DNA of 64,000 nucleotides, from positions 62,001 to 126,000 of the forward strand of contig JAQGOP010000053.1 in assembly GCA_028293545.1 (NCBI GenBank), in the 5' to 3' direction. The notes below the pieces were generated by a model. It was given only the letters and a program-made list of their open reading frames with translations, was not told where the DNA came from and made no database searches. Both the position numbers and the translations under genes were made by a program. Position 1 is the first letter of the stretch. Every line of letters starts with the position of its first letter. Positions 23,374 to 51,398 of the stretch are shown here, in pieces. Source of the stretch: Verrucomicrobiota bacterium. GTDB lineage: Bacteria; Verrucomicrobiota; Verrucomicrobiia; Opitutales; Opitutaceae.

Positions 23374-23587
23374 CGAGCGGATAGTGCGGAAAAGCCACGC
23401 GTGGTTCCGGTTGACGCTCACCTCGGGCCAACTGGGAAAAATTGTGGGCGTCGCGCATCAGCGAGACTCCAAGGTCCGCGTCCCGGTTGAATCCACGCGC
23501 GCAGTGCGGGAATAATCCCGATCCGGCAACCGGGTTTCCCTGTCGCCTCAGCCCTGAACGGCTTCGGCTCGGGCGGGTCCATGCTGC

Positions 23588-28668: not shown

Positions 28669-31271
<2,603 letters not shown>

Positions 31272-31970
31272 GTGACGTTCAGCAAAACGAATCTCTGGTA
31301 TCTCGGGGCCCATTTCATGGCAAATATCCAGGCTCGAGACCGGAACTCGGCTCGTCAGAACCTGGATTTGATCCTCGGCATCATTGAGCACGAAAGCAAT
31401 GGGCGGTTCGGATATTTCAAGCTCCGCACCCTGCAGGTTCTGACCAATGCGAACCGCGCGGCATTCAATGCCGGGGCTTCGACGGAACTGCTGAATACGC
31501 ACAGCCTGCAGATCGTATGGCAAATCGACGAAGTTCAATCGGCGGCGCAATTGCTCCAGATAGCGCATGGTGCCGTCGATAAAACGATCGGCCTCGTCCC
31601 GGTCGCAAACGAGTACCGGGATCGAATCGTGCAGGAGGCGATTGCCCATATTCGCGACCATTTCGCCGAGGACCTGACCCGGGATACGATCGTGCGGAGC
31701 CTGGGATGCAGCCCCACTCATTTCAGCCGGATATTTTCACAGGCCACCGGATACACTTTTCGCGATTTCCTGATCCAATGCCGTTTGGAAAAGGCCAAGG
31801 AGCTCCTGAGAAATTCGCACCTGCTCATCGGCGAAATCGCGCAGCAGGTCGGTTATGACGATCCATTTCAGTTCTCGAAACTTTTCCGGATCCGCCTCGG
31901 CATGAGTCCTCGCCAGTTTCGCGAAGCGCGCCTTTCCCCGGTTGATGTGATCAAGCCGAACGAGGAATGA
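31272..31970 (+). CDS. AraC family transcriptional regulator
   Basis: 232 residues. The C-terminal 100 residues are a complete AraC double HTH: IRDHFAEDLTRDTIVRSLGC, SPTHFSRIFSQATGYTF, LLIGEIAQQVGYDDPFQFSK and LFRIRLGMSPRQFREAR. The N-terminal half (RQNLDLILGIIEHESNGRF to AAFNAGASTELL) resembles the linker module of regulators that normally carry a PocR sensor ahead of it, yet no such sensor is encoded upstream in frame (a TGA lies at 31239). It is therefore either a short form or truncated. Start GTG 31272 or ATG 31317. It overlaps the convergent P450 gene end by 20 bases. Confidence 0.82.
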   Translation: MTFSKTNLWYLGAHFMANIQARDRNSARQNLDLILGIIEHESNGRFGYFKLRTLQVLTNANRAAFNAGASTELLNTHSLQIVWQIDEVQSAAQLLQIAHGAVDKTIGLVPVANEYRDRIVQEAIAHIRDHFAEDLTRDTIVRSLGCSPTHFSRIFSQATGYTFRDFLIQCRLEKAKELLRNSHLLIGEIAQQVGYDDPFQFSKLFRIRLGMSPRQFREARLSPVDVIKPNEE

Positions 31971-33195
31971 CGCGGGCGCGCAGGTGGCAAAGGCCGCGCA
32001 AGAGGCCGTTCTTCCACACCGGATTGTCTTCCAGAATTTCAATTTGATACGGACCGGTGAGAAGTTCCTCGAGTGCGACCTGCACTTCGAGTCGGGCGAG
32101 GGCTGCACCCAGGCAGAAGTGGGCGCCGTGACCGAATGCAACGTGGCGCACGGGATTACGCTTCACGTCGAGCCGGTCAGGATCCGGATTTGCCGCGGGG
32201 TCGCGGTTGGCCGAACCCAGGAACTGAAGGACGATTTGGCCTTTGCGCAGCGACTGTCCGCGTAGCTCGCAGTCTTCCGTGACCACGCGCCGATTGCGCT
32301 GAAATGGGGAATCGAAACGCAGCAATTCTTCCACGGCGTTGCGGATCAAGGGTGGGTTGGCGCGAAGAATTTCACGCTCGGCCGGGTTCTGGTGCAGGCG
32401 CAGCAGACTCGTTCCGAGGAGATTGGTGGTGGTTTCGTGGCCTCCAATCAGGATGGTGGTGAGCGTCGATATCATCTCGTCATCGGTAAGCTTGTCCCCG
32501 GCCTCGCGGGCTTGGACGAGCGCTGTCACCAAATCGTCCTTCGGGTGAGCTTTCCGCTCGTCCGTCAAACTGTGAAACCGATTGCGCAGCCGCACCAGGG
32601 CGTCGTTGGACGCGAGCAAAACCTCCTGGGAGGGTCGCGGCGTCGCCATGAACTCGACGGTTTTGCTCGACCAAAGCTTGAAATCGTCCCGCTCCGCCTC
32701 GGGCACGCCCATCATCTCGGTGATGACGGTGATGGGCAGCGGATAGGCCAGATCCCGCACCACGTCCATTTCGCCATTTCTCAGCGCGACTTTTGCGAGG
32801 ATGCCGCGAACAATTTCACGGATTCGATCTTGAAGGCGCCGGATCGCCGAGGGGGTGAATCCCTGCTGCACCAGCCGGCGCAATCGCGAGTGATCGCCGC
32901 CATCCACGTTGATGAGCCCCGTGTTGTAATGAGAAATCAGCGGCCGAATTCTATCCTGGAATGAAACCGGGAGTTCCGACTCGAAGACAGCGGTCAGCCG
33001 GCGGACGCTGGAAAAGCGCTCCGGAGTATTGAGGGTTGCGACAACATCATCGTGCCGCGTGAGCAACCAGCAACCCCATGATTGCGACCAGCAAACCGGG
33101 GCGGTTTCCCGCAATTCAGCGTAAAGCGCGTAGGGATTGCGCATGAACTCCTCGCTCTGCAGCCGGGCATCGACGGGAAATTCAGCGGGTTTCAT
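31951..33195 (-). CDS. Cytochrome P450 (class I bacterial type)
   Basis: 414 residues. Haem-ligand Cys361 in FGHGAHFCLGAALAR, the ExxR helix as EELLR, the oxygen-activating I-helix motif LIGGHETTTN (Ala/Gly-Gly-x-(D/E)-T-T form), and the N-terminal phrase NPYALYAELRETAPV common in soluble CYPs. It would monooxygenate a small substrate with electrons from a ferredoxin system; no ferredoxin or reductase gene is adjacent. It is the last gene of the minus-strand run hyuA-hyuB-oxidase-racemase, about 50 bases after the racemase, so it may act on the same substrate. ATG 33195 is used; upstream residues to 33312 are not P450-like. Confidence 0.92.
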   Translation of the reverse strand: MKPAEFPVDARLQSEEFMRNPYALYAELRETAPVCWSQSWGCWLLTRHDDVVATLNTPERFSSVRRLTAVFESELPVSFQDRIRPLISHYNTGLINVDGGDHSRLRRLVQQGFTPSAIRRLQDRIREIVRGILAKVALRNGEMDVVRDLAYPLPITVITEMMGVPEAERDDFKLWSSKTVEFMATPRPSQEVLLASNDALVRLRNRFHSLTDERKAHPKDDLVTALVQAREAGDKLTDDEMISTLTTILIGGHETTTNLLGTSLLRLHQNPAEREILRANPPLIRNAVEELLRFDSPFQRNRRVVTEDCELRGQSLRKGQIVLQFLGSANRDPAANPDPDRLDVKRNPVRHVAFGHGAHFCLGAALARLEVQVALEELLTGPYQIEILEDNPVWKNGLLRGLCHLRARVIPRSA

Positions 33196-33244
33196 GAGGG
33201 GATGGGTGATGTTCCTGCGGGATAAGGGGTGATCGAGGACAGTG

Positions 33245-34003
33245 CTAGGCGCGCGGACGTCGGGCGCGCAGTTGAGCGACTTCCGCTGCCGGCGGTTTTT
33301 GCCAGGTGCCATAGCGGCTCAGCGTCGGGATTCCGGCCTTGCGCGCTTCCACGAGAAACTCCGTGGTTTTGAAACCCGTGAGCACCGGATCGATGATCGG
33401 CACCCCTTGGAGGTCGCCGCGACCGGCCACCGTGAGGGGGCAACTCTGGAGCGTGCAGCCCATGAGAATGGCTTCCGCGCCGTCCTCCTCGATGCACTTG
33501 CGCGCAACGTCGAGCGTGCGCTGGACCAGAATAGAGGGATCCGTCCGTTCGGCGTAGGACTCGCGGGCGGACAGGTTGATGTGACGGACGGACGCCAGTT
33601 TCGAATCGGTGCCGTAGAGCTGGGCGAGTTCGCGATAGCAGTGGACGGTCTTTGGTTCGGTCGCGATGACCGAGTATCGCTGCGAGATTTGATTCACGTA
33701 GTGCGCGCTCGATTCGAATGCTCCGGTCACGACAATGTCGGCCACTTCGCGTGCTTCGCCCAGGCCGGGATCATAGCAGCAGCAGATGAAGACTGCGTCG
33801 AAACCCTGGTCCTGCGCGCGCAGCACGCGTTCGACGACAGCCGAGGCGCACTGAAGCCGATAGTAGATGTAGGTGACGTAGTTGAGCGGAAAGACATCCG
33901 CGATGTTCTCGAATACGAGTTCGGTGTCCGGACGTGCGACGCGGCGGCAGTGTTCGGCTTCGAGCGTGACACCGGCGAATGGATTGAGGACGAGGATTTT
34001 CAT
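33245..34003 (-). CDS. Asp/Glu/hydantoin racemase family protein
   Basis: 252 residues. Both catalytic cysteines of the family are present: CCC at 74-76 in FICCCYDPGL and Cys183 in AILMGCTLQSC. The start is MKILVLNPFAG. Relatives racemise hydantoins or aspartate/glutamate, or cleave maleate. Its ATG overlaps the stop of the sarcosine-oxidase-like gene by four bases (ATGA), and it lies with hyuA/hyuB genes, so hydantoin racemisation is the simplest assignment. An in-frame upstream extension to 34135 lies inside the oxidase gene and was rejected. Confidence 0.86.
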   Translation of the reverse strand: MKILVLNPFAGVTLEAEHCRRVARPDTELVFENIADVFPLNYVTYIYYRLQCASAVVERVLRAQDQGFDAVFICCCYDPGLGEAREVADIVVTGAFESSAHYVNQISQRYSVIATEPKTVHCYRELAQLYGTDSKLASVRHINLSARESYAERTDPSILVQRTLDVARKCIEEDGAEAILMGCTLQSCPLTVAGRGDLQGVPIIDPVLTGFKTTEFLVEARKAGIPTLSRYGTWQKPPAAEVAQLRARRPRA

Positions 34004-35139
34004 GAGAGTGCGGGGAAGCGGTTGAGTCGGAAAAGGGAAATATCCTGCGCGGGCGTACGCCCCTGGATCAGGTGGGAAAGGACTTCGCCGATCACGGGAG
34101 TGAACTTGAACCCGTGCCCCGAGCACGGTGAGCACAGGATGACCCGCGGCGTTTCAGGATGATGATCGATGATGAAATTCTGGTCGTTCGTGAACGTCTG
34201 CAGGCACGCCTGATGCGCCACCGCGCGCCCGGCGAGCGATCCAAAGGTGTTGCGCATGAACTGGGAAAGATTCTGCAGATCGGACGGCAACAGCTTGTCG
34301 TGCTGCTCGTCCGCGGAATCGAGGGGCGTGCCTCCACTGGTTTCGGCGGTTTTGACCGTGCGGCCATCGAGCGTGGGAAACCCGTAGAAATCCCCGCCGC
34401 GATTTTTCAGGATGAAGACCGGGCAAACCTCGGGACGGAAGAGGCTGATATCGGCCATCTCGAACCAAACCTGGACCTTGCGTTTCAGCGTCATGCTGGC
34501 GCCCAGCTTTCGCAGTTCAGGGATGATCCACGCGCCGGTGGTGAGGACGAGTTTCGCCGCGCGCAATCGACGCTTGTCCGTGCGCACCTCGACGCCATTG
34601 GCATCGGCCTGCCAGGAGATCATTCGCTCATCGGGCAGGAGCGTGGCGCCTTCCTCCAAGGCCGATGCCGTATGGGCCTTCACGAAGGCTTCCGGATTGC
34701 CGAAGCCTCCCGCCGGGTCGAAATATACGATGGAATCGTCAGGCAGATTGAAATGCGGATAACGCACCCGCGCTTCATCGACCGTCCAGCACGCATGTGG
34801 CAAGTCGTGCGTGGCGAAGCATTTTTCCATCCCGCGATGAAATTCACTGCCGATGACGCCCGCCGTGATCAGCCCGACATTGTGGAAGAGAGTCACGTTG
34901 CGACGGCGCTCGAGTTCCGCCATCAGCTCGTAGCTCCGGTGCATCAGCGGCACATATGAAGGGTCGAGGAAATATGCCTTCCGGATGATCCGCGAATCGC
35001 CGTGGCTGCTCCCGCGGCTATGGCCGGGCTCAAATTGCTCGATTCCGCAAACCTTCAGGCCGTCCTGCGCGAGATGGAAGAGCGCGCTGCTGCCCATCCC
35101 GCCCACACCAGCCACGATTACGTCGTAGGTGTCAGTCAT
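34000..35139 (-). CDS. Sarcosine oxidase-like FAD-dependent oxidoreductase (MSOX/MTOX family)
   Basis: 379 residues. The FAD-binding dinucleotide fold opens the protein (YDVIVAGVGGMGSSALFHLA). The cysteine that carries covalent FAD in monomeric sarcosine oxidase is matched by Cys312 in QACLQTFTND, with the following NFIIDHHPETP and CSGHGFKFTPVIGEVL in the expected order. The enzyme oxidises an N-methyl group to formaldehyde plus H2O2, or a related secondary amine. It overlaps hyuB by 8 bases and the racemase gene by 4. The presence of katG 3 kb away could cope with the peroxide but is a separate gene. Confidence 0.9.
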   Translation of the reverse strand: MTDTYDVIVAGVGGMGSSALFHLAQDGLKVCGIEQFEPGHSRGSSHGDSRIIRKAYFLDPSYVPLMHRSYELMAELERRRNVTLFHNVGLITAGVIGSEFHRGMEKCFATHDLPHACWTVDEARVRYPHFNLPDDSIVYFDPAGGFGNPEAFVKAHTASALEEGATLLPDERMISWQADANGVEVRTDKRRLRAAKLVLTTGAWIIPELRKLGASMTLKRKVQVWFEMADISLFRPEVCPVFILKNRGGDFYGFPTLDGRTVKTAETSGGTPLDSADEQHDKLLPSDLQNLSQFMRNTFGSLAGRAVAHQACLQTFTNDQNFIIDHHPETPRVILCSPCSGHGFKFTPVIGEVLSHLIQGRTPAQDISLFRLNRFPALS

Positions 35140-36817
35140 CGTGATGGTCGTAGTGTTCGTGAACGAAGTCCGGCGAAACGTAACCATTCTCCTGGTCGAG
35201 CGCGATGGCCTCGCGCGCGCGTTCGCGTGGTGCGCCCCAACCGCCGCCGCCCGGGGTTTCGATGCGGATGCGATCGCCGCGGCGGAGGGTGACGACGGTC
35301 TTGGTCGGCAACTCCCGCTGGGTTCCGTCCGGCGAGATCAAATAAGTGTGGGCGCCGCGGGCATGGCCGCCGCCGTCAAGTCCCCAGGGCGTAAATCGGC
35401 GTCGATCGGAACTCAGGGTCATGGTGGCGAGTTCCCCCAGGAACAGAAATTCGCGCACCAGCCCGCAACCTCCGCGGAATTTTCCGGGGCCACCGCTGTC
35501 CGGGACCAGGCCATACCGCACCACCCTAAGCGGATAGCTTCGCTCCACGACTTCGATGGGAGTGTTCTGCGTATTGGTCAGATGGTTTTGCATCCCATCC
35601 GCGCCGTCGAGGTCGTGACACGCGCCAGTCCCACCGCCGTAGGTTTCGACAAAATTAAAATATCCTCCGGTCGCCGGATTGAGCCCGCCGATGTTGGTCA
35701 GGTTCATTTCGCTGCTGCACGCGGCGCAGACCCTGGTCGGCGCGCACTGGTAGAGCGCGCCCAGGATGACATCCACGACGCGTTGATCGGTGAGGATGTT
35801 GGCGTTTCCGATCGCGGCAGGGAAACGTGCCTGGAGCAGCGAGCCTTCCTCGGCGAGGACGGTGATGGGACGATGCGCTCCGGCGCAGCTCGGAAGGTCG
35901 GGGTCGACCACTGCCTTGATGGCGTAATACACGCACGCACGCGCGGCGGAGATCCGGGCGTTGAGCGGCCCGGCGACCTGGGGCGACGTGCCGGCGAAAT
36001 CGGCGACGAGCTTGCCGCCGCCCACGGTGAGTTTTACCCGGATTCGGACCGGCGGCCCGCCCGCGCCATCGTCGTCGAGGAAATCCTCGAAACTGTACGA
36101 TCCCGGTTTCAGCTGCGCCAGCCCGGCGCGCATGCTGGATTCGGCATGGTCAAGAATCGCGGCGAGATCCCGGGCGATTTCCTGGGCCGTCGCGACCTTG
36201 TAACATTCGAGCACGCGCTTCGTTGCGGTGGTCGCGGCCGCCCATTGCGCCATGAGGTCGCCCTTGAGTTCCCGCTGCGTGCGAACGTTCTGGCGGATGA
36301 GGTCATAGATGGCCTCGTTCATGACCCCGCGCGAAAACAGTTTGATCGGCGGAATCTGGAGTCCTTCCTGGTAAATTTCCGTCACGCCGAACGGCATGCT
36401 GCCGGGAGCGTAGCCACCCATGTCGACGTGGTGCGAGGTGGTCACGATCAACAGGACCGGCTTTCCTTCGTGGAAAACGGCCGACACCATGGACACGTCG
36501 GGCAGGTGCCCGGGTCCGTCGGGGTAGGGCAGGTTCGTGATGACTGCGTCGCCCTCCTCAAAGTGGGCGAGCGGAACCTTCGCGAGCACGGAGCGGATCA
36601 CCCCGGGCATGATGCCGAGGTGCAGGGGAGTGCCGACCTCCGCCTGCGCGATAATCTCGCCGTTGGGCAGCGCGAGCGCGGTGGAACAGTCGAAACGATC
36701 GCGGATGTTCGGCGAATAACTCGCTCGAATCATGGCGGCGCAGACTTCCTCGGCGATGCCCCGCCAGCGGTTGCGGAGAATCTCGAGTTGGATGGGATTG
36801 ACGGCGGAAAGGCTCAT
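35132..36817 (-). CDS. Hydantoinase/oxoprolinase subunit B (HyuB family)
   Basis: 561 residues. Opens with NPIQLEILRNRWRGIAEEVC and shows SPNIRDRFDCSTAL, NGEIIAQAEVGTPLHLG and HHVDMGGYAPGSMPFGVTEI, the metal-binding and substrate loop of HyuB/N-methylhydantoinase beta subunits. It forms the ring-opening enzyme with HyuA, whose stop codon overlaps this ATG (ATGA). Family members hydrolyse 5-oxoproline, N-methylhydantoin or hydantoins with ATP, or carboxylate ketones; the neighbouring sarcosine-oxidase-like gene favours an N-methylated hydantoin. Cytoplasmic. Confidence 0.9.
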   Translation of the reverse strand: MSLSAVNPIQLEILRNRWRGIAEEVCAAMIRASYSPNIRDRFDCSTALALPNGEIIAQAEVGTPLHLGIMPGVIRSVLAKVPLAHFEEGDAVITNLPYPDGPGHLPDVSMVSAVFHEGKPVLLIVTTSHHVDMGGYAPGSMPFGVTEIYQEGLQIPPIKLFSRGVMNEAIYDLIRQNVRTQRELKGDLMAQWAAATTATKRVLECYKVATAQEIARDLAAILDHAESSMRAGLAQLKPGSYSFEDFLDDDGAGGPPVRIRVKLTVGGGKLVADFAGTSPQVAGPLNARISAARACVYYAIKAVVDPDLPSCAGAHRPITVLAEEGSLLQARFPAAIGNANILTDQRVVDVILGALYQCAPTRVCAACSSEMNLTNIGGLNPATGGYFNFVETYGGGTGACHDLDGADGMQNHLTNTQNTPIEVVERSYPLRVVRYGLVPDSGGPGKFRGGCGLVREFLFLGELATMTLSSDRRRFTPWGLDGGGHARGAHTYLISPDGTQRELPTKTVVTLRRGDRIRIETPGGGGWGAPRERAREAIALDQENGYVSPDFVHEHYDHHDD

Positions 36818-38862
36818 GGGGCGCGATTGGGGGTTGCGGCGCGCAAGACAAGATTTCCAAAGGGATCCACTTTGGCTTGGTGACCAGGGGGAACCCAGGT
36901 CGTGGTGTCCGGCTGTTCGATCACGGCCGGGCCGCTAATGACGGTGCCGGACGCCAGCGAAAACCGGCGGTAGACGGCGGCCTCGATGTTTTTCCCGTGG
37001 AGAAACACGTTGCGCTCGCCGATGCGCGCAGGGGATTTTTCCGGGGAATAGGGCGGCGTGACGCTCTCGCGGGCGTGGAGGGTCACCACCGCCCACAATG
37101 CCACGATTTCAACGGGTTCATCGGCGAACGCGTATCCGAAGAGCCGGCGATGCGCCTCGTGGAATAGCGCCGCGACCTCCCGGTCCTTGATGGTTCCGCC
37201 TGGGATTTCGACCGTGAGGGAGTGGCTCTGACCCTGGTAACGCAGCTGCAGGCGACGATCGAGACGGTGGGTTCGTTCCCCGCCGCTTTTGATACCGAGG
37301 CGTCCTCCCGCCTCCTGTTCGAGGTGGTCGAACCTTTCGGCCAGCTCTGATGCCGCCGCGGCGTTCAGCGGACGGAGCCAGGTCTGGAGTTGCTCCTCGC
37401 GCATTTCTGAAATCAGCAAACCGACCGCGGAGAAGACGCCCGGTAGAACCGGCACGATGACTTCGGCGAGGCCCATTTCGTCGGCGAGCTCGGCGCCATG
37501 AAGCGCGCCGGCGCCACCGAACATGCACAGCGAGAATCGGGCCGGGTCATGGCCGCGTTCGACGGTGAGCTTGCGAATCGCGGCCGTCATCCGCGCATTG
37601 ACGACCCGGATCATGCCTTCCGCAGTTTCCTCGATCCCCAATCCCAGCGGAGAGGCGAGGCGCGTTTCAATCGCCCGGCGCGCCGCGGCCAGGTCGAGGT
37701 CCATTCCGCCGGCGAGCGACGATCGCGCCGCAATGCGACCGAGAACGAGATTGGCGTCAGTCACCGTTGGCTCGGTCCCGCCGCGGCCGTAGCACACGGG
37801 ACCGGGCACCGCCCCGGCTGATTGCGGCCCGACGCGGAGCGCTCCGCCGGCGTCAATCCATCCAATGCTGCCGCCGCCCGCTCCGACCGTGTGGATGTCG
37901 ATCATCGGCACATTGATCGCGAGCCCGCTGATATCGGAGCGGCTCGAGTAGCCGAGTTTTCCGCCGTGAATGACTGAGACATCGAAACTCGTGCCGCCGA
38001 TATCCGCGGTGATAAGGTCGGGCCGTCCGGTTTCCGCGGCGAGACGGACCCCCGCGACCACGCCACCCGCCGGGCCGGAGAGCAATGTCTCGACGCTCCG
38101 CTCGCCGGCAACAGCGGCGGTGGTCATGCCGCCGTTGGACTTCATGATGAACAGCGACGACGGCAGGCGTTTCTGACTCAGGCTCGATTTCAACCGTTCG
38201 AGGTAACTCTGCATCTTCGGCTGCACGTAGCTATTGATCACGCACGTGCTGAATCGTTCGTACTCGCCCTGGCTGCGGACGACCTCGTGCGACAGGCAAA
38301 TCTTGGTCCCGGGCAGGTGCTGCCGCAGGAGGTCGCGCAGGGCGCATTCGTGCGCGGGATTCACGTAACTGTTCAACAGACCCACGGCGATGGATTCTAT
38401 TTTCTCGGCCTTGAGCCGGGCGATGACCGCACCGAGCGATCCGGTGTCGAGCGGGGTTTCGACGGTGCCGTCGCACAGGATGCGTTCCGGTACTTCGAAG
38501 ATCAGGGAACGCGGCACGATGGATTTCGGGCGGCGGCCGCGCAGATCGTATAGGCGTGGACGGTTTTGGCGCTGGAGGATGAGCACATCGCGAAATCCCT
38601 CCGTTGTCAGGAAGGCGGTTCGCGCCCCTTTGCGCTCGAGCACGGCGTTCGTGGCGACCGTCGATCCGTGAATGAGATGATCGACCTCCGCGCGGTCGAG
38701 TCCTTCGCGCGTGCACATTTCGATGATCCCATTGCACAGGGCTTCTCCGGGATCATGCGGAGTGCTGTGCACCTTGTGAAACAACCGGCGGCCATCCTCG
38801 ACGTTGATGGCCACCAAGTCAGTGAATGTTCCGCCCGTATCGATGCCAATGCGCCAGCTCAT
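36814..38862 (-). CDS. Hydantoinase/oxoprolinase subunit A (HyuA family)
   Basis: 682 residues. ATP-binding N-terminus of the family (GIDTGGTFTDLVAINVEDG), then HGSTVATNAVLERKGART, RSLIFEVPERI, IADIGGTSFDVSVIHGGK-type phosphate loop and a C-terminal HyuA domain ending SGPAVIEQPDTTTWVPPGH. It supplies ATP-dependent activation of the cyclic amide opened by the B subunit. It starts 15 bases after the aminotransferase gene and overlaps hyuB by four bases. Its length and motif order agree with N-methylhydantoinase and hydantoinase A proteins; acetone/acetophenone carboxylase subunits are related alternatives. Confidence 0.91.
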   Translation of the reverse strand: MSWRIGIDTGGTFTDLVAINVEDGRRLFHKVHSTPHDPGEALCNGIIEMCTREGLDRAEVDHLIHGSTVATNAVLERKGARTAFLTTEGFRDVLILQRQNRPRLYDLRGRRPKSIVPRSLIFEVPERILCDGTVETPLDTGSLGAVIARLKAEKIESIAVGLLNSYVNPAHECALRDLLRQHLPGTKICLSHEVVRSQGEYERFSTCVINSYVQPKMQSYLERLKSSLSQKRLPSSLFIMKSNGGMTTAAVAGERSVETLLSGPAGGVVAGVRLAAETGRPDLITADIGGTSFDVSVIHGGKLGYSSRSDISGLAINVPMIDIHTVGAGGGSIGWIDAGGALRVGPQSAGAVPGPVCYGRGGTEPTVTDANLVLGRIAARSSLAGGMDLDLAAARRAIETRLASPLGLGIEETAEGMIRVVNARMTAAIRKLTVERGHDPARFSLCMFGGAGALHGAELADEMGLAEVIVPVLPGVFSAVGLLISEMREEQLQTWLRPLNAAAASELAERFDHLEQEAGGRLGIKSGGERTHRLDRRLQLRYQGQSHSLTVEIPGGTIKDREVAALFHEAHRRLFGYAFADEPVEIVALWAVVTLHARESVTPPYSPEKSPARIGERNVFLHGKNIEAAVYRRFSLASGTVISGPAVIEQPDTTTWVPPGHQAKVDPFGNLVLRAATPNRAP

Positions 38863-38877
38863 AAAAAAAAGTGCGGG

Positions 38878-40173
38878 TTACGGCCGTGCCACGATTTCAG
38901 CCAGGACGCGGAGGAAGGTTTCGACCTCTTGCGGCGTGTTGTAGTGGGCGAGTGAAACTCGCACGACTTCGGGAACGCCGAGCGCCGTCAGCGTGTGACC
39001 GGAGTAGGCGTCGGTCACGCGGTCGTGCACGATCACGCCCCGATTTCCGAACTGCTGTACAATTTCACCGGTGGTCAGCCCCTCGATCGTAAAGGCGAAC
39101 ACCGCTTCGCGACCGCGGACGGGGTCGCGCTGGCCGTGAAGGGTTACCCGCGGATGCCTGGCCAAGCCCGTCAGGCCTTCGACACCTTCGAGCAGGCGCC
39201 GACTCAGCGCCGCCTCGTGGTGTGCAATCGCCTGCATGCCCGCCGCGAGCTGGCTGCGCCGGTCCCGTTGCGAAATCGATGCGTCCGCCTGGGTCCCAAG
39301 CCACGAGAGATAATCCACCACGCAAGTAAACGCGGCGAACCCGCCGGGATCGCGCGTGCCCAGATCCCAGTCGGCCGCGGGTTTTCCCAGCAATTGCGCG
39401 TGCGGCAGTTTCGTGAGACGCGGGCTGAGATACGCGAAGGCGAGGCCCGGTTTGGAAAAAACCTTGTACGCCGAGAAGACATAAGCGTCGACCCCGGAAG
39501 CCGCGACATCGACGAGGCAATGCTGGGTATGCTGGGCGCCGTCGGCGACGATGATGGCTTGTGGCGCGCGGGCGCGAACCTGTCGCACGACCTCGTTCAG
39601 GTCCGACTGTCCACCCGTGATGTTCGACGCGTGGATGATCGACACCGCCACGGTGCCCGAATCCACCTGCGCAGCGAACGTGTCGGCATCCAATGCGCCG
39701 GTTTTCCGGTTGAGCGGAACCACGCGGCGTTCAAGGCCGTGTCGATCCGCGAGGAATTTCGCCGCATCGTAGAACGATGCGTGGTCGAGCGTGCTGCAAA
39801 CCAGATTGGTGCCGCGAATGCCTGCGACCGCCGCGGAAAGAATGCGGAACGCGCACGAGGTCGTGCTTTGGTCGCAGAGGATCGCGCCGTCACGGGCGTT
39901 CAGGAATGTCGCGACGTCTGCTCGTCCGCTCCGGAGCACGCGACCGATTTCGGACGAGGCGGCGTTTTCGCGTCCGGCATTGTCGGGCAGCGAGGAGTAT
40001 TTCAGGTCGGCATCGAACACGCTGCGAAGCGTCAGTCCGCCGCCGGCGTTTTCAAAATAAACGCGGGCACCGCTGAATGGATCGCGATCGGCGTGAAGGA
40101 ATCGGCTGCGGATCGCCTCGAGCAAGGAAGCCTCGAAGAGTTTTTCCGCAGGGTTGGCGGCGAGAGCTGGCAT
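38878..40173 (-). CDS. Aminotransferase class V family protein (cysteine-desulfurase-like fold)
   Basis: 431 residues of the PLP fold-type I. Seen: YFENAGGGLTLRSV at the N-terminal binding loop, DQSTTSCAFRILSAAVAG, HASNITGGQSDLNEVV, IIVADGAQHTQHCLVDV (PLP-interacting Asp and His), and FSAYKVFSKPGLAF with the Schiff-base lysine. C-terminal YSGHTLTALGVPEVVRVSLA is of this class. The catalytic cysteine loop of true cysteine desulfurases was not identified, so an aminotransferase, lyase or epimerase role fits better. It is the first gene of the minus-strand operon with hyuA, suggesting action on an amino acid released or fed into the pathway. Confidence 0.85.
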   Translation of the reverse strand: MPALAANPAEKLFEASLLEAIRSRFLHADRDPFSGARVYFENAGGGLTLRSVFDADLKYSSLPDNAGRENAASSEIGRVLRSGRADVATFLNARDGAILCDQSTTSCAFRILSAAVAGIRGTNLVCSTLDHASFYDAAKFLADRHGLERRVVPLNRKTGALDADTFAAQVDSGTVAVSIIHASNITGGQSDLNEVVRQVRARAPQAIIVADGAQHTQHCLVDVAASGVDAYVFSAYKVFSKPGLAFAYLSPRLTKLPHAQLLGKPAADWDLGTRDPGGFAAFTCVVDYLSWLGTQADASISQRDRRSQLAAGMQAIAHHEAALSRRLLEGVEGLTGLARHPRVTLHGQRDPVRGREAVFAFTIEGLTTGEIVQQFGNRGVIVHDRVTDAYSGHTLTALGVPEVVRVSLAHYNTPQEVETFLRVLAEIVARP

Positions 40174-40476: not shown

Positions 40477-41424
40477 TTACGGGACACTGGGCGTGCGCGA
40501 TTCGGCGGTCAGAGATGACCGGAAAATATCTGCGTCTCCCTCGGTTGGACCCGCATAAGGCGGCAGCATGCGGAGGGGAAAATCCGGCGCCTTCATCCGG
40601 TAGAGGAGCTTGTCGTAACCGCCATCCATGTGGAAGCGCCCCGCGCCCAGTCCCAGAAGCGTCGCGAGCATGGCCCGCAGCTGGACGATTATCTCTTTCC
40701 GTCGGGCATCGTCGCAGGTCGTAAACTCACGTCCCAGAACGTCGGATACGGAGGAAAGCGAAATCAGCAGGCCGCAATCCCCGACGGTGCGGGCTTCGGC
40801 GTAGCCGAATTCGGTGAAGAAAAAACGCAGCCGCGGCGAAAGCTCCATCAGTTCGCGGACCTTGATCGGATCCTGGATTCCCGTCTTCACCGCGACCAGA
40901 TTGGGATGGGCTGTCACCAGGCGGCGGTATTCGGCCGCTCCCAGGACGCGGCCCACGCGCCCGAGGTTATAGTGGAGAAAGTGGGAGTCGGGGAAACGGC
41001 CGCAGGTTTCCGCAAAGAAACGATCGAGCTCAGCTTCGTTGAGCGTGCCCCAACTTGGAAGCGAGAGCTGGAATTCCCGAAAACCCAGGGAACGTCCGAA
41101 TTCAATGCGCTCGATCACGGTGCCGAGCGAAAGGGAAATAATCCCCAGCATCGGTTGCGCGGCGTGTTTCACGGAACTCTTCCAGAACGCCGTCGCGATC
41201 TGGCGAAACTGGGTTTCTGACACGCCGTAGCCTTCTCCCGCGGTGCCAAAAATGTAGAGATAGGGAGTCAGACTTCGCACGAGCGCGGCGACCTGCCGGT
41301 CGAAGGCGGACTCGTCGAATTCGAACCGTTCGGTCCAAGGAACGACGGCCGTGCCGAGGATCGTGCGATCCTGCATCGGGTTTTTCTTCGCAGCGGGGAG
41401 GGAAGAGGCAGTGACTTTAGGCAT
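40477..41424 (-). CDS. Dihydrodipicolinate synthase/N-acetylneuraminate lyase family protein
   Basis: 315 residues of the DHDPS/NAL TIM-barrel class. The Schiff-base lysine is in NLVAVKTGIQDP, a tyrosine in HFLHYNLGRV fits the proton relay, and YIFGTAGEGYGVSETQF corresponds to the family's GGTTGE-like start. The glycine-threonine motif is altered (GTAGEG), so a 2-oxo-acid aldolase or dehydratase of sugar acids is as likely as a lyase. Its ATG (41424) overlaps the stop of the preceding HpcH/HpaI gene by 8 bases. Two aldolase-type enzymes in one operon suggests a 2-keto-3-deoxy acid pathway. Confidence 0.82.
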   Translation of the reverse strand: MPKVTASSLPAAKKNPMQDRTILGTAVVPWTERFEFDESAFDRQVAALVRSLTPYLYIFGTAGEGYGVSETQFRQIATAFWKSSVKHAAQPMLGIISLSLGTVIERIEFGRSLGFREFQLSLPSWGTLNEAELDRFFAETCGRFPDSHFLHYNLGRVGRVLGAAEYRRLVTAHPNLVAVKTGIQDPIKVRELMELSPRLRFFFTEFGYAEARTVGDCGLLISLSSVSDVLGREFTTCDDARRKEIIVQLRAMLATLLGLGAGRFHMDGGYDKLLYRMKAPDFPLRMLPPYAGPTEGDADIFRSSLTAESRTPSVP

Positions 41425-42238
41425 AGTGCGATTTTGCGTGCGCTTTGGCTTCGGGAGGAAGGCCGGTGACTTGTTCGTGCATGAAGTCCACGCGCTGTTT
41501 GAAATAGAGCCCCAGGCCGTAGACGTCGGAGCCACATCCGAAAACCCGGTAGCCTTCCGCCAGCAATTCCGGCAGCGGCGCCATCATTCCCGGAAGCATC
41601 GCGAATTTTCCATGTTTGCGCGCGGCCGCCCCGATGCGCTTGCGCGCGTTGAGGATTTCCGGGGAATCCATCTTGCCGACTTTGCCGATGCGGTGGCTGA
41701 AATCGCCCGCGCCGAAAAGCAGCATGTCAAATCCAGGCACCGCCGCGATCTCCTCCACGTTTTCCAACGCCTCGGGCGATTCGATCTGCAGGATCACGAT
41801 CACTTCCTCGTTGGAGTGGCGGATATACTCGTCCATCGGGAGCTGGCAGAAGAGGCCGTCGACATTGCCGCCATCGAGGGCGCGTTTCCCAAGCGGATGA
41901 AACCGGGTCCATTCCACGATCTGGCGGGCTTCCTCGGCGGAAGCGACGTGCGGGACGATGATCCCGGTGGCTCCGGCCTCGAGAGGAAGGATATAACTGC
42001 TGTAGCTGCCCCGCGCGACGCGAACGAGGCAATCAATGTCATGAAGCCGCGCGGCCCGAATCTGGTTTTCGATGCCAATCCAGTCGTTGGGGACGTGCTC
42101 GGTGCACAACCAGACGGCATCGGTCCCGGAAAGTCCGGCGAGTTCGCTCACGCGAGGATCGGAAAGATTGAGTTTTAGGATCGTCGGGATTTGGCCCTGA
42201 CGAAGTTGCGCTAACACACGACTACCTCGGGTTTTCAT
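41417..42238 (-). CDS. HpcH/HpaI aldolase family protein
   Basis: 273 residues of the pyruvate-class-II aldolase fold. Divalent-metal ligands fit VILQIESPEALENV (Glu) and LLFGAGDFSHRIG (Asp), and CLVRVARGSYSSYILPLEAG holds the conserved arginine. The family cleaves 2-keto-3-deoxy sugar acids or 4-hydroxy-2-oxo acids to pyruvate plus an aldehyde. It is the first gene of a two-gene operon with the DHDPS-family protein and diverges from a GntR regulator 258 bases away, which likely controls it. Confidence 0.86.
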   Translation of the reverse strand: MKTRGSRVLAQLRQGQIPTILKLNLSDPRVSELAGLSGTDAVWLCTEHVPNDWIGIENQIRAARLHDIDCLVRVARGSYSSYILPLEAGATGIIVPHVASAEEARQIVEWTRFHPLGKRALDGGNVDGLFCQLPMDEYIRHSNEEVIVILQIESPEALENVEEIAAVPGFDMLLFGAGDFSHRIGKVGKMDSPEILNARKRIGAAARKHGKFAMLPGMMAPLPELLAEGYRVFGCGSDVYGLGLYFKQRVDFMHEQVTGLPPEAKAHAKSHYA

Positions 42239-42496: not shown

Positions 42497-43288
42497 ATGA
42501 ATGAAACCGATATTGAAGGCTTCCCGACCGAAAATGCTCACACACAGAGAGCATATGAATTCATCCGTCAGAAGATCTTGGATGGTGCCTATTCGCCTGG
42601 TTATCGCCTGAAGACACTCATCTTGGCCAAGGAATCGGGGGTAAGCCGAACGCCCGTTCGGGAGGCTTTGCGCCAACTGCAAAGCGAGGGGCTCGTGGAC
42701 ATACAGCCCCGCTTGGGTGCCAGCGTTCGCGCCGTGACGTTTTCCCAGTTCAAGGAAATGTGTGAGCTGCGGCTCGCGCTCGAGTCTTTCTCGGCCGAAC
42801 AAGCCGCGCGCAACCGGCAACCGGAGGATATAATCGATCTAGAGGAAGCTTATCGGGAAATGGAAAAGCTGGTCGAGGCCCTGGAGCGGGTGAGCGACTC
42901 TGAAAAGCTCCTGCAGGAGCTGGTTGCCCAGGATATCCGGTTCCATCTTGCGGTGCTCAAGGCGGCGGGAAATAACCTGCTCAAGGCCGAGGTTCTTCGT
43001 TTGCACCTCTTCAGTCGACTCGTGCGAATGGACGTCGGCAAGATGCCGGAAGGTCCCCGGGATTCCACGGTCATCGACACCCCTGAGCGCCGGCGGTGGG
43101 TCCTCGGCTGTCACCACAAAATTTTCCTGGCGATCCAAAGCGGGGAACCCGAGGCGGCCCGTCAGGCGATGCACGAACACTTGAGAGATATCATCGATCG
43201 CGGCGTCATGGCGATGGTCCGCGCGCAAAAGCGTCGCGAGGAGCGGTCAGTGCCTCATTCGGGCGCGTTCTACGCGACGAACAACTGA
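42497..43288 (+). CDS. GntR family transcriptional regulator (FadR/FCD subfamily)
   Basis: 263 residues. The winged helix at about 17-80 has RAYEFIRQKILDGAYSPGYR, KESGVSRTPVREALRQL and EGLVDIQPRLGASVR, the FadR-group pattern. The FCD ligand domain (about 85-230) follows with FKEMCELRLALESFSAEQAAR, DIRFHLAVLKAAGN (metal/effector His) and HHKIFLAIQSGEPEAARQAMHEH. Such regulators sense sugar acids or carboxylates and repress neighbouring catabolic genes. It stands between the aldolase operon (divergent) and the TonB-receptor locus (downstream, same strand), so it could control either or both. Confidence 0.92.
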   Translation: MNETDIEGFPTENAHTQRAYEFIRQKILDGAYSPGYRLKTLILAKESGVSRTPVREALRQLQSEGLVDIQPRLGASVRAVTFSQFKEMCELRLALESFSAEQAARNRQPEDIIDLEEAYREMEKLVEALERVSDSEKLLQELVAQDIRFHLAVLKAAGNNLLKAEVLRLHLFSRLVRMDVGKMPEGPRDSTVIDTPERRRWVLGCHHKIFLAIQSGEPEAARQAMHEHLRDIIDRGVMAMVRAQKRREERSVPHSGAFYATNN

Positions 43289-43550: not shown

Positions 43551-45689
43551 ATGAAAACGAACTCCGTCCCACAGACGTTTAGAAAGTTGATGACAGTCGG
43601 TTTAGCGATCGGGTCCCTCGCGGGACCTCTCTTGGCCCAAACCCCGAGCCCTTCCCCGGCGCCGGATGAGCCCAAGTCCCAAGATTCAGATACGGTAAAA
43701 TTGAATCCGTTCACCGTTTCGGAAACCCAACGGTCCCCTTGGAATTCCCAGCAGACCTTTTCCGGCAGCCGCGTGGCGGAAAACATCATGGATGTGCCGA
43801 TCAACATCTCGATCATCACGAGTGATTTTATCCAGAGCGTCGGCGCCACCAACCTGACCGACGTGCTCAACTATGCCGGCAGCGGCGTCAATCAGCGCGT
43901 AAGTTACCGCGACGATGTTTCCATTCGCGGGTTTCGCGAGCAGTTGAACCGCGATGGCATTGCTTACATCGGATACGGCAACCCCGGATACTATGACGTT
44001 GATCGCATCGAGGTCATCAAGGGCCCGACCGCCCTGGTGTACGGCAACTTCAGTTCCATTGGTGGCACGGTGAATTATGTGACGAAGCGGCCGACCGCGA
44101 CCTCGCAGGGCGAGTCGCATTTTTCAGTCGGCTCCGATTCCTTTTATTCCGCGGATGTCACCCAGCGCGGACCGGTTACACAGGACGGCCGGGTGCGGTA
44201 CCGCGTGACGCTGGGCGGCCAGAATTACGGCGGCTACAAGAACGAGGAATATGAAAACATCAAAGCCTATAGCGGCAGCGTTGACTGGACCGTCACGAAG
44301 GAAATTGAAATGCACTTTGACTATGCGCACGGCGACAATGTCCGCCGCGATTTCAACCGGTCGCTGGTGGACCCGGTCGCGCTGACGCTCGCCCCATTAC
44401 CTGCGGATTTTTCGACCAGTGCGCCTTGGAGCAAGGTGCAATCGAGCAATGACCGCTACCGGGTGGAGGCCATTTATCAACCGACCAAGAACGTCACGGC
44501 ACGTATCCTGGGCAATAGCTTTGAGAATGACTACGGGTACCAAATTCCGCAGCCCGCGGGCGGCCTGAACCCGGCGCAGTATCCCAATTATACCAGCATC
44601 GGGCAGCGCTTCCTCTCTTTTGCCTTGAAGGACAAGAAGCAGGATGTGCAGGCGGACATCACGTGGAAGGTCGATATTGGCGACGTGGCCAATAACCGGC
44701 TTACCGCCGGCTGGGCGAATGTATACACGTCGACGGTGCAGAATCTCCTCCTCGCGCCGATGCCCGACCTGCAGATTTCCACGCCGTTCGACCAGCGCCC
44801 CGGCATTCCGCCGAAGTCCACCTGGGTCTACTTGCTGGATAACTCGGTATCGCGGTCCACCGGTTGGACAGCCTATGTGCAGGATGCCGTGACCCTATTC
44901 CATGATCACTTGATCCTGGTGGCGGGCGTCCGCGATGTGCCGGAAGGGGCGACGAGCAAGGGAGTCAGCACCACCTTGCCGCGTTACGGCATTGTCTATA
45001 AGGTGAACGACGGGCTCTCGCTCTATAGCGGCTACTCGAAATCGTTCAGCCCGCTGTCAGGCGTGGATTTGCTGGGAACTCCGTACCGCGACATCTATGG
45101 CGAAGACAAGGAAGTCGGCATCAAAGTGAATTCGTTCGGCGGCCGGCTGTTTGGCTCGGTGGCATATTTCGATATTCTCAACGATCCGGTTGTCACCCAA
45201 GTGCAGGTCGTCGACCCGCGAACCGGCATCCTCGTGTTCGGCAATCAGCAGACCGGCAAGCAAACCAACAAGGGCGTCGAGGTCGACATGGGGACCCAGC
45301 TCGACCTGGGGCCCGGCCAATTGCTGGGCTTCGCCACGTATTACAATGCCGACCCGAAGGACGAGACGGGCATGAAGCCGGCGCGCGCCGTGTCGACCAA
45401 GATGACCCTCTTCATGCGGTACGAATTCAAGACGGGCCCGGTGAAAGGCTTCAGCATCGGCGCGGGCCGGTCGGAATTTGGCAGCCAGATCGGCACCGGC
45501 ATCCCCTTGGAGCCGGGCTATACTCTATATAGCGCGACCTTGGGTTATACCAAGAAGAACTGGAGCGTCATCGTGAACTTCGATAACGTGACCAACGTCA
45601 AGGATGCCATCCTCGGATCCGAGGCGAACTTCTCGGTCAACACCGAGCGTCCTTTCAGCACCAAGGTTTCGTTTGCCTATCATTGGTAA
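43551..45689 (+). CDS. TonB-dependent outer-membrane receptor
   Basis: 712 residues. Signal peptide ending about LLAQ (residue 30), then a spacer and TonB-box region VKLNPFTVSETQ, the form used in Opitutales receptors. The plug (about 70-195) contains NIMDVPINISIITSDFIQ and DVDRIEVIKGPTALVYGN, ending with GGTVNYVTKRP; the barrel runs to the end with the terminal aromatic residue of FAYHW. The sequence resembles siderophore receptors, but its place at the head of a carbohydrate-type gene run favours an oligosaccharide or related ligand. No SusD partner is encoded. It probably starts the operon 43.5-54.3 kb. Confidence 0.92.
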   Translation: MKTNSVPQTFRKLMTVGLAIGSLAGPLLAQTPSPSPAPDEPKSQDSDTVKLNPFTVSETQRSPWNSQQTFSGSRVAENIMDVPINISIITSDFIQSVGATNLTDVLNYAGSGVNQRVSYRDDVSIRGFREQLNRDGIAYIGYGNPGYYDVDRIEVIKGPTALVYGNFSSIGGTVNYVTKRPTATSQGESHFSVGSDSFYSADVTQRGPVTQDGRVRYRVTLGGQNYGGYKNEEYENIKAYSGSVDWTVTKEIEMHFDYAHGDNVRRDFNRSLVDPVALTLAPLPADFSTSAPWSKVQSSNDRYRVEAIYQPTKNVTARILGNSFENDYGYQIPQPAGGLNPAQYPNYTSIGQRFLSFALKDKKQDVQADITWKVDIGDVANNRLTAGWANVYTSTVQNLLLAPMPDLQISTPFDQRPGIPPKSTWVYLLDNSVSRSTGWTAYVQDAVTLFHDHLILVAGVRDVPEGATSKGVSTTLPRYGIVYKVNDGLSLYSGYSKSFSPLSGVDLLGTPYRDIYGEDKEVGIKVNSFGGRLFGSVAYFDILNDPVVTQVQVVDPRTGILVFGNQQTGKQTNKGVEVDMGTQLDLGPGQLLGFATYYNADPKDETGMKPARAVSTKMTLFMRYEFKTGPVKGFSIGAGRSEFGSQIGTGIPLEPGYTLYSATLGYTKKNWSVIVNFDNVTNVKDAILGSEANFSVNTERPFSTKVSFAYHW

Positions 45690-45703
45690 GCGATGATGCC
45701 ACG

Positions 45704-45733
45704 GCCACCGGCGGGCAATCGACCCCCGGTGGC
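45704..45733 (+). terminator. Hairpin in the receptor/propeller spacer
   Basis: GCCACCGG and CCGGTGGC pair around a 14-base loop, 15 bases after the receptor stop. There is no T-run, so it may be a partial terminator that lowers expression of downstream genes relative to the receptor, or an mRNA processing or stability element. Confidence 0.4.
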
Positions 45734-45762
45734 GCGCAGCAAACCCCCAGCTCGATCTCAAA

Positions 45763-47319
45763 ATGAAATCCCCCAGAGCGTTTGTTTTCGTTCTCATTAC
45801 GTTAATCGGCATGGCGGACGCCGCGGCGGCGCCGCTGGCCGTCGGCCTGCGCAAGCAGTTATTCATGGACGAGCGGTTCGTCGAACAGGCCGAGAACGTC
45901 GTTTGGCGGATGAACAGCCCCGTGAAGGTTGGCGCCGTGCTCACCGGGACCAATTCCTGGGAAAATGGCATCGTCTCGGGCGCGGGGACGGTGATCGAGG
46001 ATGGGGGCAAATTTCGCCTTTGGTACACCGCCTGTCCGGCTTCGGGCCATCCGCTCGGGTTGTTCCGGCTGTGTTATGCGGAGTCCAGCGACGGCCTCAC
46101 GTGGGTGAAGCCCAACCTCGGGATTTACGAGTGGGAGGGATCGAAGGCCAACAACATCCTCATGGAAAGCAGCATTGAAAACGGCGGGGGCGTTTTCCTC
46201 GATCCCACCGCCCCGCCGGCCCAGCGCTACAAGCTGCTCGCCCGCCTTTCGGAAGTGAAAGTCCTGGTCGCGGGACACGATCCCCAGTGGGGCAACGCCC
46301 CCCACGGTTCGGGCCTCTATATGTATACCTCGCCGGATGGACTGCATTGGGACCTGCAGCCCACCCGGGTTTTTCCCTTCTCGCCCGATACGGTCAACAT
46401 GGCGCTCTACGATGATCGCACGAAGCGATTCCTGGCGTACCTTCGGACGTGGAACGGCGACCAGCGACGGGTCGGGGTGGTCGAAATCGAAAACATGCTC
46501 GCGCCCTGGCCGTACGACAAGAACGTGCCGCCGCGTGCGCTTGGGAAATTCGCGGTCGCCCCGAGTTTTCCGGTGCCCGACAAGGAGATTCCCGATGCTT
46601 TCGGCGCCGATGCCGGCGATCCGCCGGACGTCGATCACTACACCTCAGCCACCGTGAAATATCCGTGGGCCGAGGATGTTTACCTGATGTTCCCGAGTCC
46701 GTACCGGCATTTTCCGCCGCCACCGGCCAGCCTGTACCATAACGACGGCCCGCTGGATATCGCACTGGCGATCAGTCGCGACGGGCGAAAGTTTCACCGC
46801 GTCTCGCGCTTTCCCTATATAGAACTGGGCCTCACGGGCGCCGCTGACAGCGGCTCGATGTATATGTTCATCGGGATGATCCGGCATGGGGCTGAGCTCT
46901 TTCAATATTACGGCGGCTGCGACTGGACCCACGGCGGCTTCGAGGGCGTGCCCGAAATGCGGAATCGCGGCGGCGTCCGCCTGACGCGCCAGCGGCTCGA
47001 CGGCTTCGTTTCCCTCGAGGCGGATGAAAAGGGCGGCCAGTTTACCACCCCCGCCCTGATATTCGAGGGCACGCATCTGGCGCTCAACCTGAACGCCTCG
47101 GCCACCGGCGAGGTGTGGGTGGAACTGCGCGATGCGGACGGACACGCGCTGCCGGGTTATGCCTTCGCGGACAGCGATTCGTTGGGCCAGAACGACGTCG
47201 CCAAGGTGGTGACCTGGCGCGGCGGAAAAGCCGACGTCAGCGCGCTGGCGGGCCATGCTGTTCGGATCGCGTTCAAACTGCGCACGGCAAAATTGTATGC
47301 GTTTCAATTTCTTCAATAA
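45763..47319 (+). CDS. Secreted glycoside-hydrolase-32/43-like beta-propeller protein
   Basis: 518 residues with a signal peptide (SPRAFVFVLITLIGMADAAAA). The body is a propeller-like array with blade phrases such as GKFRLWYTACPASGH, CYAESSDGLTWVKPNLGIYE, SKANNILMESS and YMYTSPDGLHWDLQPTRVF, the sugar-binding and Asp-box-like pattern of GH32/GH43/GH130-type folds. The final about 90 residues (HLALNLNASATGEVWVELRD to YAFQFLQ) form a beta-sandwich shared with its neighbour at 47327. Catalytic acids could not be fixed. It lies in the receptor-led run, 8 bases before its paralogue's start. Confidence 0.75.
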   Translation: MKSPRAFVFVLITLIGMADAAAAPLAVGLRKQLFMDERFVEQAENVVWRMNSPVKVGAVLTGTNSWENGIVSGAGTVIEDGGKFRLWYTACPASGHPLGLFRLCYAESSDGLTWVKPNLGIYEWEGSKANNILMESSIENGGGVFLDPTAPPAQRYKLLARLSEVKVLVAGHDPQWGNAPHGSGLYMYTSPDGLHWDLQPTRVFPFSPDTVNMALYDDRTKRFLAYLRTWNGDQRRVGVVEIENMLAPWPYDKNVPPRALGKFAVAPSFPVPDKEIPDAFGADAGDPPDVDHYTSATVKYPWAEDVYLMFPSPYRHFPPPPASLYHNDGPLDIALAISRDGRKFHRVSRFPYIELGLTGAADSGSMYMFIGMIRHGAELFQYYGGCDWTHGGFEGVPEMRNRGGVRLTRQRLDGFVSLEADEKGGQFTTPALIFEGTHLALNLNASATGEVWVELRDADGHALPGYAFADSDSLGQNDVAKVVTWRGGKADVSALAGHAVRIAFKLRTAKLYAFQFLQ

Positions 47320-47326
47320 ATACCCA

Positions 47327-48811: not shown

Positions 48812-48901
48812 GCCACCGTCACATCGAACGAAACTGCGCCGGCTGATCATGAGTTCTTCCTCAAATTCCCCTAGCGCTGCGCCAATCGGCGCGGTGCCTG
48901 G

Positions 48902-51386: not shown

Positions 51387-51398
51387 TCCTGACATTTC

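Follow-up and report, generated by a model that had tools for sequence, protein, structure and literature searches.

We find that six minus-strand genes at 31951-40173 of a 64,000-nucleotide stretch of Verrucomicrobiota DNA (contig JAQGOP010000053.1, positions 62,001 to 126,000; hereafter the window) form a real operon that is under purifying selection and is more than a chance arrangement. In order, these genes encode an aminotransferase (AT), the subunits HyuA and HyuB of an ATP-dependent cyclic amidase, a flavin oxidase (Sox), a racemase and a cytochrome P450. The parts are of known kinds, and their combination matches neither the creatinine nor the hydantoin pathway. The explanation that we tentatively prefer, based on sequence comparison, is that the operon may supply the central intracellular steps of a locus that serves to break down an N-substituted cyclic amide taken up from outside (a lactam or a cyclic dipeptide-like compound), probably carrying a further substituent, which HyuAB would open with ATP. 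The genome of the window (G000) is a metagenome assembly, 84% complete and in 63 contigs; it is compared below mainly with G003, which belongs to the same genus, and with G564, which comes from another genus of the family.

All six genes carry the domains that the original prediction had assigned to them, each above its Pfam cut-off: AT (38878..40173; PF00266, Aminotran_5), an enzyme of the class-V pyridoxal phosphate (PLP) aminotransferase fold; HyuA (36814..38862), the ATP-binding subunit, in which Hydantoinase_A (PF01968) is accompanied by N- and C-terminal domains; HyuB (35132..36817; PF02538, Hydantoinase_B), the metal-binding hydrolytic subunit; Sox (34000..35139; PF01266, DAO), of the monomeric sarcosine oxidase (MSOX)/N-methyl-L-tryptophan oxidase type; an epimerase of the Asp/Glu/hydantoin racemase superfamily (33245..34003; PF01177); and the cytochrome P450 (31951..33195; PF00067). 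For the last three, the likely true starts used here differ from those of the longest open reading frames. Three overlaps, of 4 bases between HyuA and HyuB, 8 between HyuB and Sox and 4 between Sox and the racemase, tie four genes together, as had been noticed earlier, and gaps of 15 and 49 bases lie at the AT-HyuA and racemase-P450 junctions, respectively. The three overlaps and the 49-base gap recur unchanged in G003, where AT and HyuA overlap by 4 bases instead. The order of the six genes, whose loss in relatives had been named beforehand as evidence against the original prediction, is kept in both G003 and G564 (69-91% protein identity in the latter), and the ratio of nonsynonymous to synonymous substitution rates (Ka/Ks) is 0.022-0.136 against G003 and 0.055-0.212 against G564, where Ks is near or above 1.

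HyuA and HyuB score 315.6 bits for Hydantoinase_A (cut-off 22.9) and 576.5 bits for Hydantoinase_B (cut-off 26.8). The best match of HyuA in the PDB is 7hk5, which bears the name N-methylhydantoinase (498 bits; 436 to 6yra), and HyuB reaches 245 bits to 7hk5 and 180 to 6yra. The nearest NCBIfam models of both are the caprolactamase subunits, with the cut-offs missed in each case (557.3 of 1000 bits for HyuA with the CapA model, 242.6 of 1000 for HyuB with CapB). HyuB has an Asp-His-Asp-His metal site (D43, H104, D107, H129) with motifs kept in all three orthologues, and its H-to-D and D-to-H spacings of 3 and 22 equal those of CapB, for which the relevant passage of PMC8453981 gives D41, H99, D102 and H124; these residues were mapped by motif and spacing rather than by direct alignment with CapB, and the neighboring D40 and H130 are possible alternatives. 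Because both subunits keep their ATP-site and metal-site motifs, the ATP-dependent ring opening proposed for them earlier is supported as the likely reaction of the family. HyuAB resembles the CapAB/N-methylhydantoinase/5-oxoprolinase family as a two-subunit enzyme with both sets of motifs, but differs in falling below both caprolactamase cut-offs and in the company of a racemase, an N-alkyl oxidase, a P450 and an aminotransferase. According to a remark in PMC6061476, caprolactamase or cyclic dipeptide hydrolase may be the true function of many genes that are annotated as 5-oxoprolinase.

The flavin oxidase scores 388.6 bits against NF008425 (N-methyl-L-tryptophan oxidase; cut-off 257), which supports its reading as a sarcosine-oxidase-like enzyme and makes it a putative N-alkyl amino acid oxidase. 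Its C312, R50, R53, K263 and K345 are residues conserved with MSOX, which we take to have the same roles here (C312, for example, as the flavin-site cysteine). Besides a score above the cut-off, it thus has in common with the N-methyl-L-tryptophan oxidase/MSOX group the cysteine of the flavin site and two arginines and two lysines. It differs from that group at the active-site residue His269 of MSOX, which aligns with Thr267 of Sox in all three orthologues; in the aligned structures, the position is Asn in the 1l9c chain and His in 7exs.

The racemase, the most conserved protein of the locus (98% identity in G003, 91% in G564), appears to be active, as its original assignment implied. The pair of cysteines in 3qvj (KpAllR) that is replaced by Ser in the variant 3qvk has its counterparts in Cys75 and Cys183, and PMC12661438 lists Cys79 and Cys184 as the catalytic cysteines of KpAllR. 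The pocket is different. Asn12 of KpAllR (by our own mapping of the aligned 3qvj Asn) corresponds to Phe9 in all three orthologues, and Thr118 to Ala114. In the comparison excerpted from PMC12661438, 100% of allantoin-hydantoin racemases have Asn or Asp at position 12, which is mostly hydrophobic in the OpaE/NozR types, and NozR participates in the biosynthesis of cyclo-D-Trp-D-Trp. Since Phe9 and Ala114 replace residues of a pocket with an invariant Asn/Asp, the substrate is probably not a hydantoin, although in overall sequence the protein is closest to hydantoin racemases (70 bits to 3qvj versus 37 bits to OpaE; the nearest solved relatives are hydantoin/allantoin racemases). It is like the OpaE/NozR epimerases in its superfamily, its cysteine pair and the hydrophobic residue in place of Asn12, and unlike them in that Ala114/Thr115 fully match neither group and OpaE reaches only 37 bits.

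At the two ends of the operon, assignments are broader. AT falls below the cut-offs of all 15 NCBIfam families listed; its FSAYK motif, which presumably contains the PLP lysine, is present in all three orthologues, and relatives of about 40% identity occur on Roseobacteraceae plasmids. An FAD-dependent oxidoreductase adjoins the relative in Ruegeria (L038:7980-11696), and an M20-type deacetylase the one in Roseobacter litoralis (L039:7992-10569). The P450 has the haem motif FGHGAHFCLG and an EELLR motif, and the NCBIfam model nearest to it describes cyclodipeptide-synthase-associated P450s (186 of 500 bits, sub-threshold).

The original prediction placed the operon correctly but drew the locus too narrowly, missing two aldolase-family genes and a GntR gene upstream and a plus-strand block at 43551-54261. 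Sixteen genes, from the P450 through a conserved protein of no known family (u602), are syntenic in G003 with 80-98% protein identity and Ka/Ks of 0.022-0.195. In G564, the order of an HpcH/HpaI-family aldolase gene (divergent from the GntR gene), the GntR gene and genes for a TonB-dependent receptor, two kinds of propeller-like protein, an amidohydrolase, an MFS transporter, an NHL protein and u602 is kept, with one additional propeller copy and an additional DAO oxidase within the stretch. The six-gene block, which follows the aldolase genes in the window and G003, stands in G564 at the opposite end, beyond u602 and convergent with it. Ka/Ks for 15 genes (excluding a DHDPS-family gene) against G564 is 0.055-0.355, which is a rough estimate since Ks is about 1 or more. 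The six genes are not to be judged alone, because regulator, aldolase, uptake and hydrolase genes travel along with them.

The NHL protein (51399..52445, plus strand) adds a further putative enzyme. Its residues 21-293 of 348 match the lyase domain (PAL) of peptidylglycine alpha-amidating monooxygenase (3fvz) with 106 bits; other NHL-repeat proteins score similarly (the non-enzymatic Thin 124 bits, over repeated segments, and TRIM71 102 bits), and because bit scores do not separate these, we assigned the protein as PAL-like by its residue pattern. All three orthologues share R51, H97, Y163, H195, R210 and H278, which line up with residues of PAL; we take their rat counterparts to be R533, H585, Y654, H690, R706 and H786, and the three histidines to bind Zn, with a role assumed likewise for R533. 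The protein shares with the PAL domain an NHL-type propeller and this set of Arg, three His, Tyr and Arg, and differs from it in being bacterial, in having no signal peptide noticed by eye, and in standing in a locus with a P450, where no PHM copper monooxygenase gene was noticed. Parts of two papers give the catalytic dyad as Tyr651/Arg703 in human PAM (PMC10303134) and the lyase reaction as the splitting of an alpha-hydroxyamide into glyoxylate and the amide (PMC6529398). The occurrence of this site set with a P450 in one locus makes an oxidative N-dealkylation pair a reasonable inference, and suggests that the P450 and the NHL lyase may jointly remove an N-substituent. To our knowledge, no P450-PAL pair for catabolic N-dealkylation has been described, although no literature search was aimed at that pair.

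The gene set is rare among relatives. HyuB has matches at E<=1e-60 in 20 of 252 genomes of the family, but identity of at least 84% is found in just three (G000, G003 and G564), and the nearest HyuB beyond these is 36% identical; none of ten other genomes of the genus has a HyuB at E<=1e-60. AT relatives of at least 67% identity occur in 3 of 141 relatives (G000, G003 and, as a contig-end fragment, G038). In samples of 387 genomes of the phylum, to which G003 does not belong (no match in it was reported), AT is matched at E<=1e-40 in two (G000 and G460) and the racemase at E<=1e-25 in G000 itself only. A scan of named genomes with two HyuB peptide patterns matched only the G003 contig. Other phyla were covered through plasmids, whose proteins yielded only relatives of less than 60% identity for the racemase, HyuA, Sox and AT, and none for u602. 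Eleven plasmid neighborhoods were opened in a non-exhaustive coverage of plasmids, and judgment is confined to the ten that were annotated (L040, unannotated, was left out): none holds the complete gene set, and three combine HyuA, HyuB and a racemase, one of them (Agrobacterium MWF001) together with a Zn-dependent hydrolase. Literature searches, with most subscription journals outside their reach, found no paper describing the combination. The distribution is that expected of a sporadic gene set which may move as a unit, like catabolic islands.

From these comparisons we infer the following scheme, including its substrates and the order of its steps. The propellers and the amidohydrolase would trim the compound, which the TonB receptor and the MFS carrier would import. 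The P450 would then hydroxylate the carbon beside an amide nitrogen, and the NHL protein, judging by its conserved PAL active site, could cleave the carbinolamide, so that the N-substituent leaves in the form of an aldehyde or an oxo acid. The racemase, with its cysteine pair intact, would invert the alpha-carbon of the ring to the form accepted by the amidase; HyuA would phosphorylate, and HyuB hydrolyze, the ring amide with ATP, as the motifs and family suggest. The flavin oxidase, whose family and cofactor residues fit the role, would oxidize the freed N-methyl or N-alkyl amino acid to a primary amino acid and an aldehyde, with formation of H2O2. Finally, the aminotransferase may take off the amino group and the HpcH/HpaI aldolase split the remaining chain, with the GntR regulator presumably sensing the substrate or a product.

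We favor such a cyclic amide pathway because the six-gene order and the order from HpcH and GntR through TonB to u602 are kept in three genomes of two genera despite the moved block, because motifs are intact in HyuA, HyuB, Sox, the racemase, the P450, AT and the NHL protein, and because close HyuB relatives are so restricted in the family. A more specific version, in which the substrate is a cyclic dipeptide, is suggested by the racemase pocket, the nearest (sub-threshold) model of the P450, the peptide-type chemistry of a PAL-like enzyme and the remark in PMC6061476 quoted above. Taken as a whole, a dedicated Verrucomicrobiota pathway with uptake of an N-methylated or N-substituted, possibly glycosylated, cyclic dipeptide, ring epimerization by an enzyme that belongs to the hydantoin racemase family but does not act on hydantoins, P450-PAL removal of the N-substituent, opening by HyuAB and an N-methyl amino acid oxidase is decidedly doubtful.

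Several points weigh against the preferred explanation, some of them especially against its cyclic dipeptide form. The link between the NHL protein and the P450 is loose, because NHL relatives, present at E<=1e-40 in 39 of the 252 genomes of the family, commonly occur without HyuAB. Among 22 loci chosen for carrying an NHL protein (those of the window, G003, G564 and G458, and L114-L131), HyuA and AT are present in just three, and u602 and the propeller family in eight each; in G038, relatives of AT, NHL and u602 are spread over two contigs, but HyuB is missing at E<=1e-60. No redox partner for the P450 was noticed among the annotated genes. Position 14 of the racemase differs in G564, and its position 9 alone is no proof of a cyclic dipeptide substrate. 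The propellers and the NagA-like amidohydrolase hint at a sugar part, which a plain cyclic dipeptide leaves unexplained. In the portion of PMC3852281 cited here, only 3 of 34 hydantoin- or dihydropyrimidine-opening strains degraded any cyclic dipeptide tested, and two N-methylated cyclic dipeptides were cleaved by no strain of that survey; a literature search on cyclic dipeptide hydrolases gave nothing on topic among the matches listed.

The closest competitors reuse some of the same enzymes. In a simple lactam route, of the caprolactam or N-methylpyrrolidone kind, HyuAB would yield an N-methyl omega-amino acid, from which the oxidase or the aminotransferase would remove nitrogen before the acid is metabolized. 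The N-methylpyrrolidone pathway includes an oxidase (literature searches on its genes gave nothing usable). The caprolactamase subunits are the models nearest to HyuA and HyuB, and caprolactam degradation proceeds by a lactamase and then an aminotransferase, as outlined in part of PMC6061476. However, HyuA and HyuB reach only 557 and 243 bits against cut-offs of 1000, AT is of class V and not class III like the aminotransferase of the caprolactam pathway, and a small achiral lactam needs neither a racemase nor a TonB uptake block; we regard this route as unlikely. Rather unlikely, too, is that two independent modules lie together by chance, one for a sugar or amino sugar (aldolase, GntR, TonB, propellers, NagA-like enzyme, MFS, NHL and u602) and the other built on HyuAB. 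The many loci that have NHL, u602 and propeller genes without HyuAB would fit this idea, as would the gene complement of G038, yet the modules adjoin each other in every one of the three genomes that have HyuAB, and do so in two arrangements, with the aldolase and GntR genes present in G564 too, which favors a functional link.

The original prediction drew a comparison with creatinine breakdown but matched the set as a whole to no known pathway. In a creatinine- or N-methylhydantoin-like route, HyuAB would convert creatinine-derived N-methylhydantoin or a 5-substituted hydantoin to an N-carbamoyl amino acid, an unlinked carbamoylase would remove the carbamoyl group, and the oxidase would take sarcosine or a similar product. 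In favor of this, the best PDB match of HyuA bears the name N-methylhydantoinase, the closest solved relatives of the racemase are hydantoin/allantoin racemases, and HyuA, HyuB and an Asp/Glu-family racemase are shared with bacterial hydantoin utilization clusters (hyuA, hyuB, carbamoylase and racemase) such as the Agrobacterium plasmid locus, one of the three plasmid neighborhoods with this trio. What such clusters have and was not found here is the carbamoylase, in whose place stand an oxidase, an aminotransferase and a P450. The absence of the carbamoyl-removal step was itself correctly noted earlier: no carbamoyl hydrolase is found among the genes annotated at the locus in any of the three genomes, and hits to TIGR01879 and PF00857 lie outside it. 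The suggestion that a carbamoylase might be encoded elsewhere holds for G003 (two) and G564 (one), where the TIGR01879 cut-off is exceeded on other contigs, but not for G000, which at 84% completeness has none over the cut-off. An isochorismatase-like gene at 23588, proposed as a candidate, scores a mere 24.5 bits of 370 as a biuret amidohydrolase, and the 59-kb G003 contig, searched from end to end, contains no counterpart. The missing carbamoylase, the change of racemase Asn12 to Phe, the change of MSOX His269 to Thr in the oxidase, and the TonB, propeller, PAL-like and P450 genes that would be left unexplained make this route improbable. More remote still is a cluster that would synthesize or tailor a modified metabolite resembling a cyclic peptide: the P450 is nearest to cyclodipeptide-synthase-associated P450s and the racemase pocket is OpaE/NozR-like at one position, but neither a peptide synthetase nor a cyclodipeptide synthase appears among the genes annotated at the locus, and the TonB receptor, transporter, amidohydrolase and aldolase-family genes suit uptake and breakdown. 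Opine or Amadori substrates, mycosporines, sialic-acid-like sugars and thiohydantoin (ergothioneine) breakdown were also weighed and set aside, as no evidence spoke for them.

The locus matters beyond its own pathway. Genes for HyuA/HyuB, Asp/Glu racemases and DAO enzymes usually receive no more than a family name and a guessed substrate; in a compact conserved set, what one enzyme makes limits what the next can take, so that one substrate screen could assign several families. In addition, the locus draws attention to PAL-like proteins, which are widespread among these bacteria.

The genes that flank the operon in the wider locus are as follows. On the minus strand lie a DHDPS-family gene (40477..41424; PF00701, 29.6 bits, cut-off 22.1; 80% identity in G003) and the HpcH/HpaI-family aldolase gene (41417..42238; assigned by Pfam; 90% in G003 and 74% in G564, Ka/Ks 0.100 in the latter). 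The GntR/FCD regulator gene (42497..43288, plus strand; Pfam; 91% and 62%, at the same place in both) lies directly before that of the TonB-dependent receptor (43551..45689, plus; Pfam; 83% and 55%); in G564, the aldolase and GntR genes likewise stand directly before the TonB gene (L070). DHDPS has just a 46% relative in G564, about 11 kb upstream of the aldolase gene and beside a second HpcH relative (63%); this pair occupies L070:918-2966, some 11-13 kb upstream of the locus.

The rest of the plus-strand block begins with two propeller-like paralogues, u518a (45763..47319; probably secreted, as judged by eye) and u518b (47327..48811), which are 34% identical. For u518a, no Pfam or NCBIfam family is found at E<=0.001, a weak profile match points to GH130/GH43-like glycoside hydrolases (best E 2e-4, about 50 positions), and the predicted structure (mean pLDDT 34) was not used as evidence; u518b has a counterpart in G003 and two copies in G564. 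There follow the NagA-like amidohydrolase (48902..50083; PF01979; TIGR00221 191.1 bits, below the cut-off of 225.65), the MFS transporter (50130..51386; PF07690) and, after the NHL gene, u602 (52453..54261), which is present in the loci of all three genomes. For u602, there is no Pfam or NCBIfam family at E<=0.001 and no PDB relative at E<=1; a single-sequence structure prediction (mean pLDDT 42) gave scattered Foldseek matches, mostly to barrel-like folds and none at E<=0.001, and was not used.

Other neighborhoods gave further observations. In G458, the NHL-u602 pair stands amid a D-serine-dehydratase-type protein, a class-III aminotransferase, an MlrC-type M81 protein, a RidA protein and a sodium symporter. 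The contig end of G038 (L025) carries, as read from translations, a TonB receptor, a secreted BNR/sialidase-like protein and a kelch protein beside the 67% AT fragment. Beyond the P450 in G003 are a second HpcH/HpaI aldolase (L023:6460-7317, 68% identical to that of the window), a second class-V aminotransferase and a PhyH dioxygenase. In the window, an AraC-family regulator (HTH_18 and HTH_AraC in Pfam), a counterpart of which adjoins the P450 of G003, is encoded at 31272-31970 (plus strand), immediately downstream of the P450 gene; the open reading frame at 31113-31721 on the opposite strand is spurious. A catalase-peroxidase gene (28669-30927, minus strand; PF00141) lies near the H2O2-forming oxidase, probably by coincidence, as the 59-kb G003 contig has no counterpart. 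Farther away, at 19382-23421 (minus strand), are two neighboring alpha-amylase-family genes, one of which carries a CBM48 domain.

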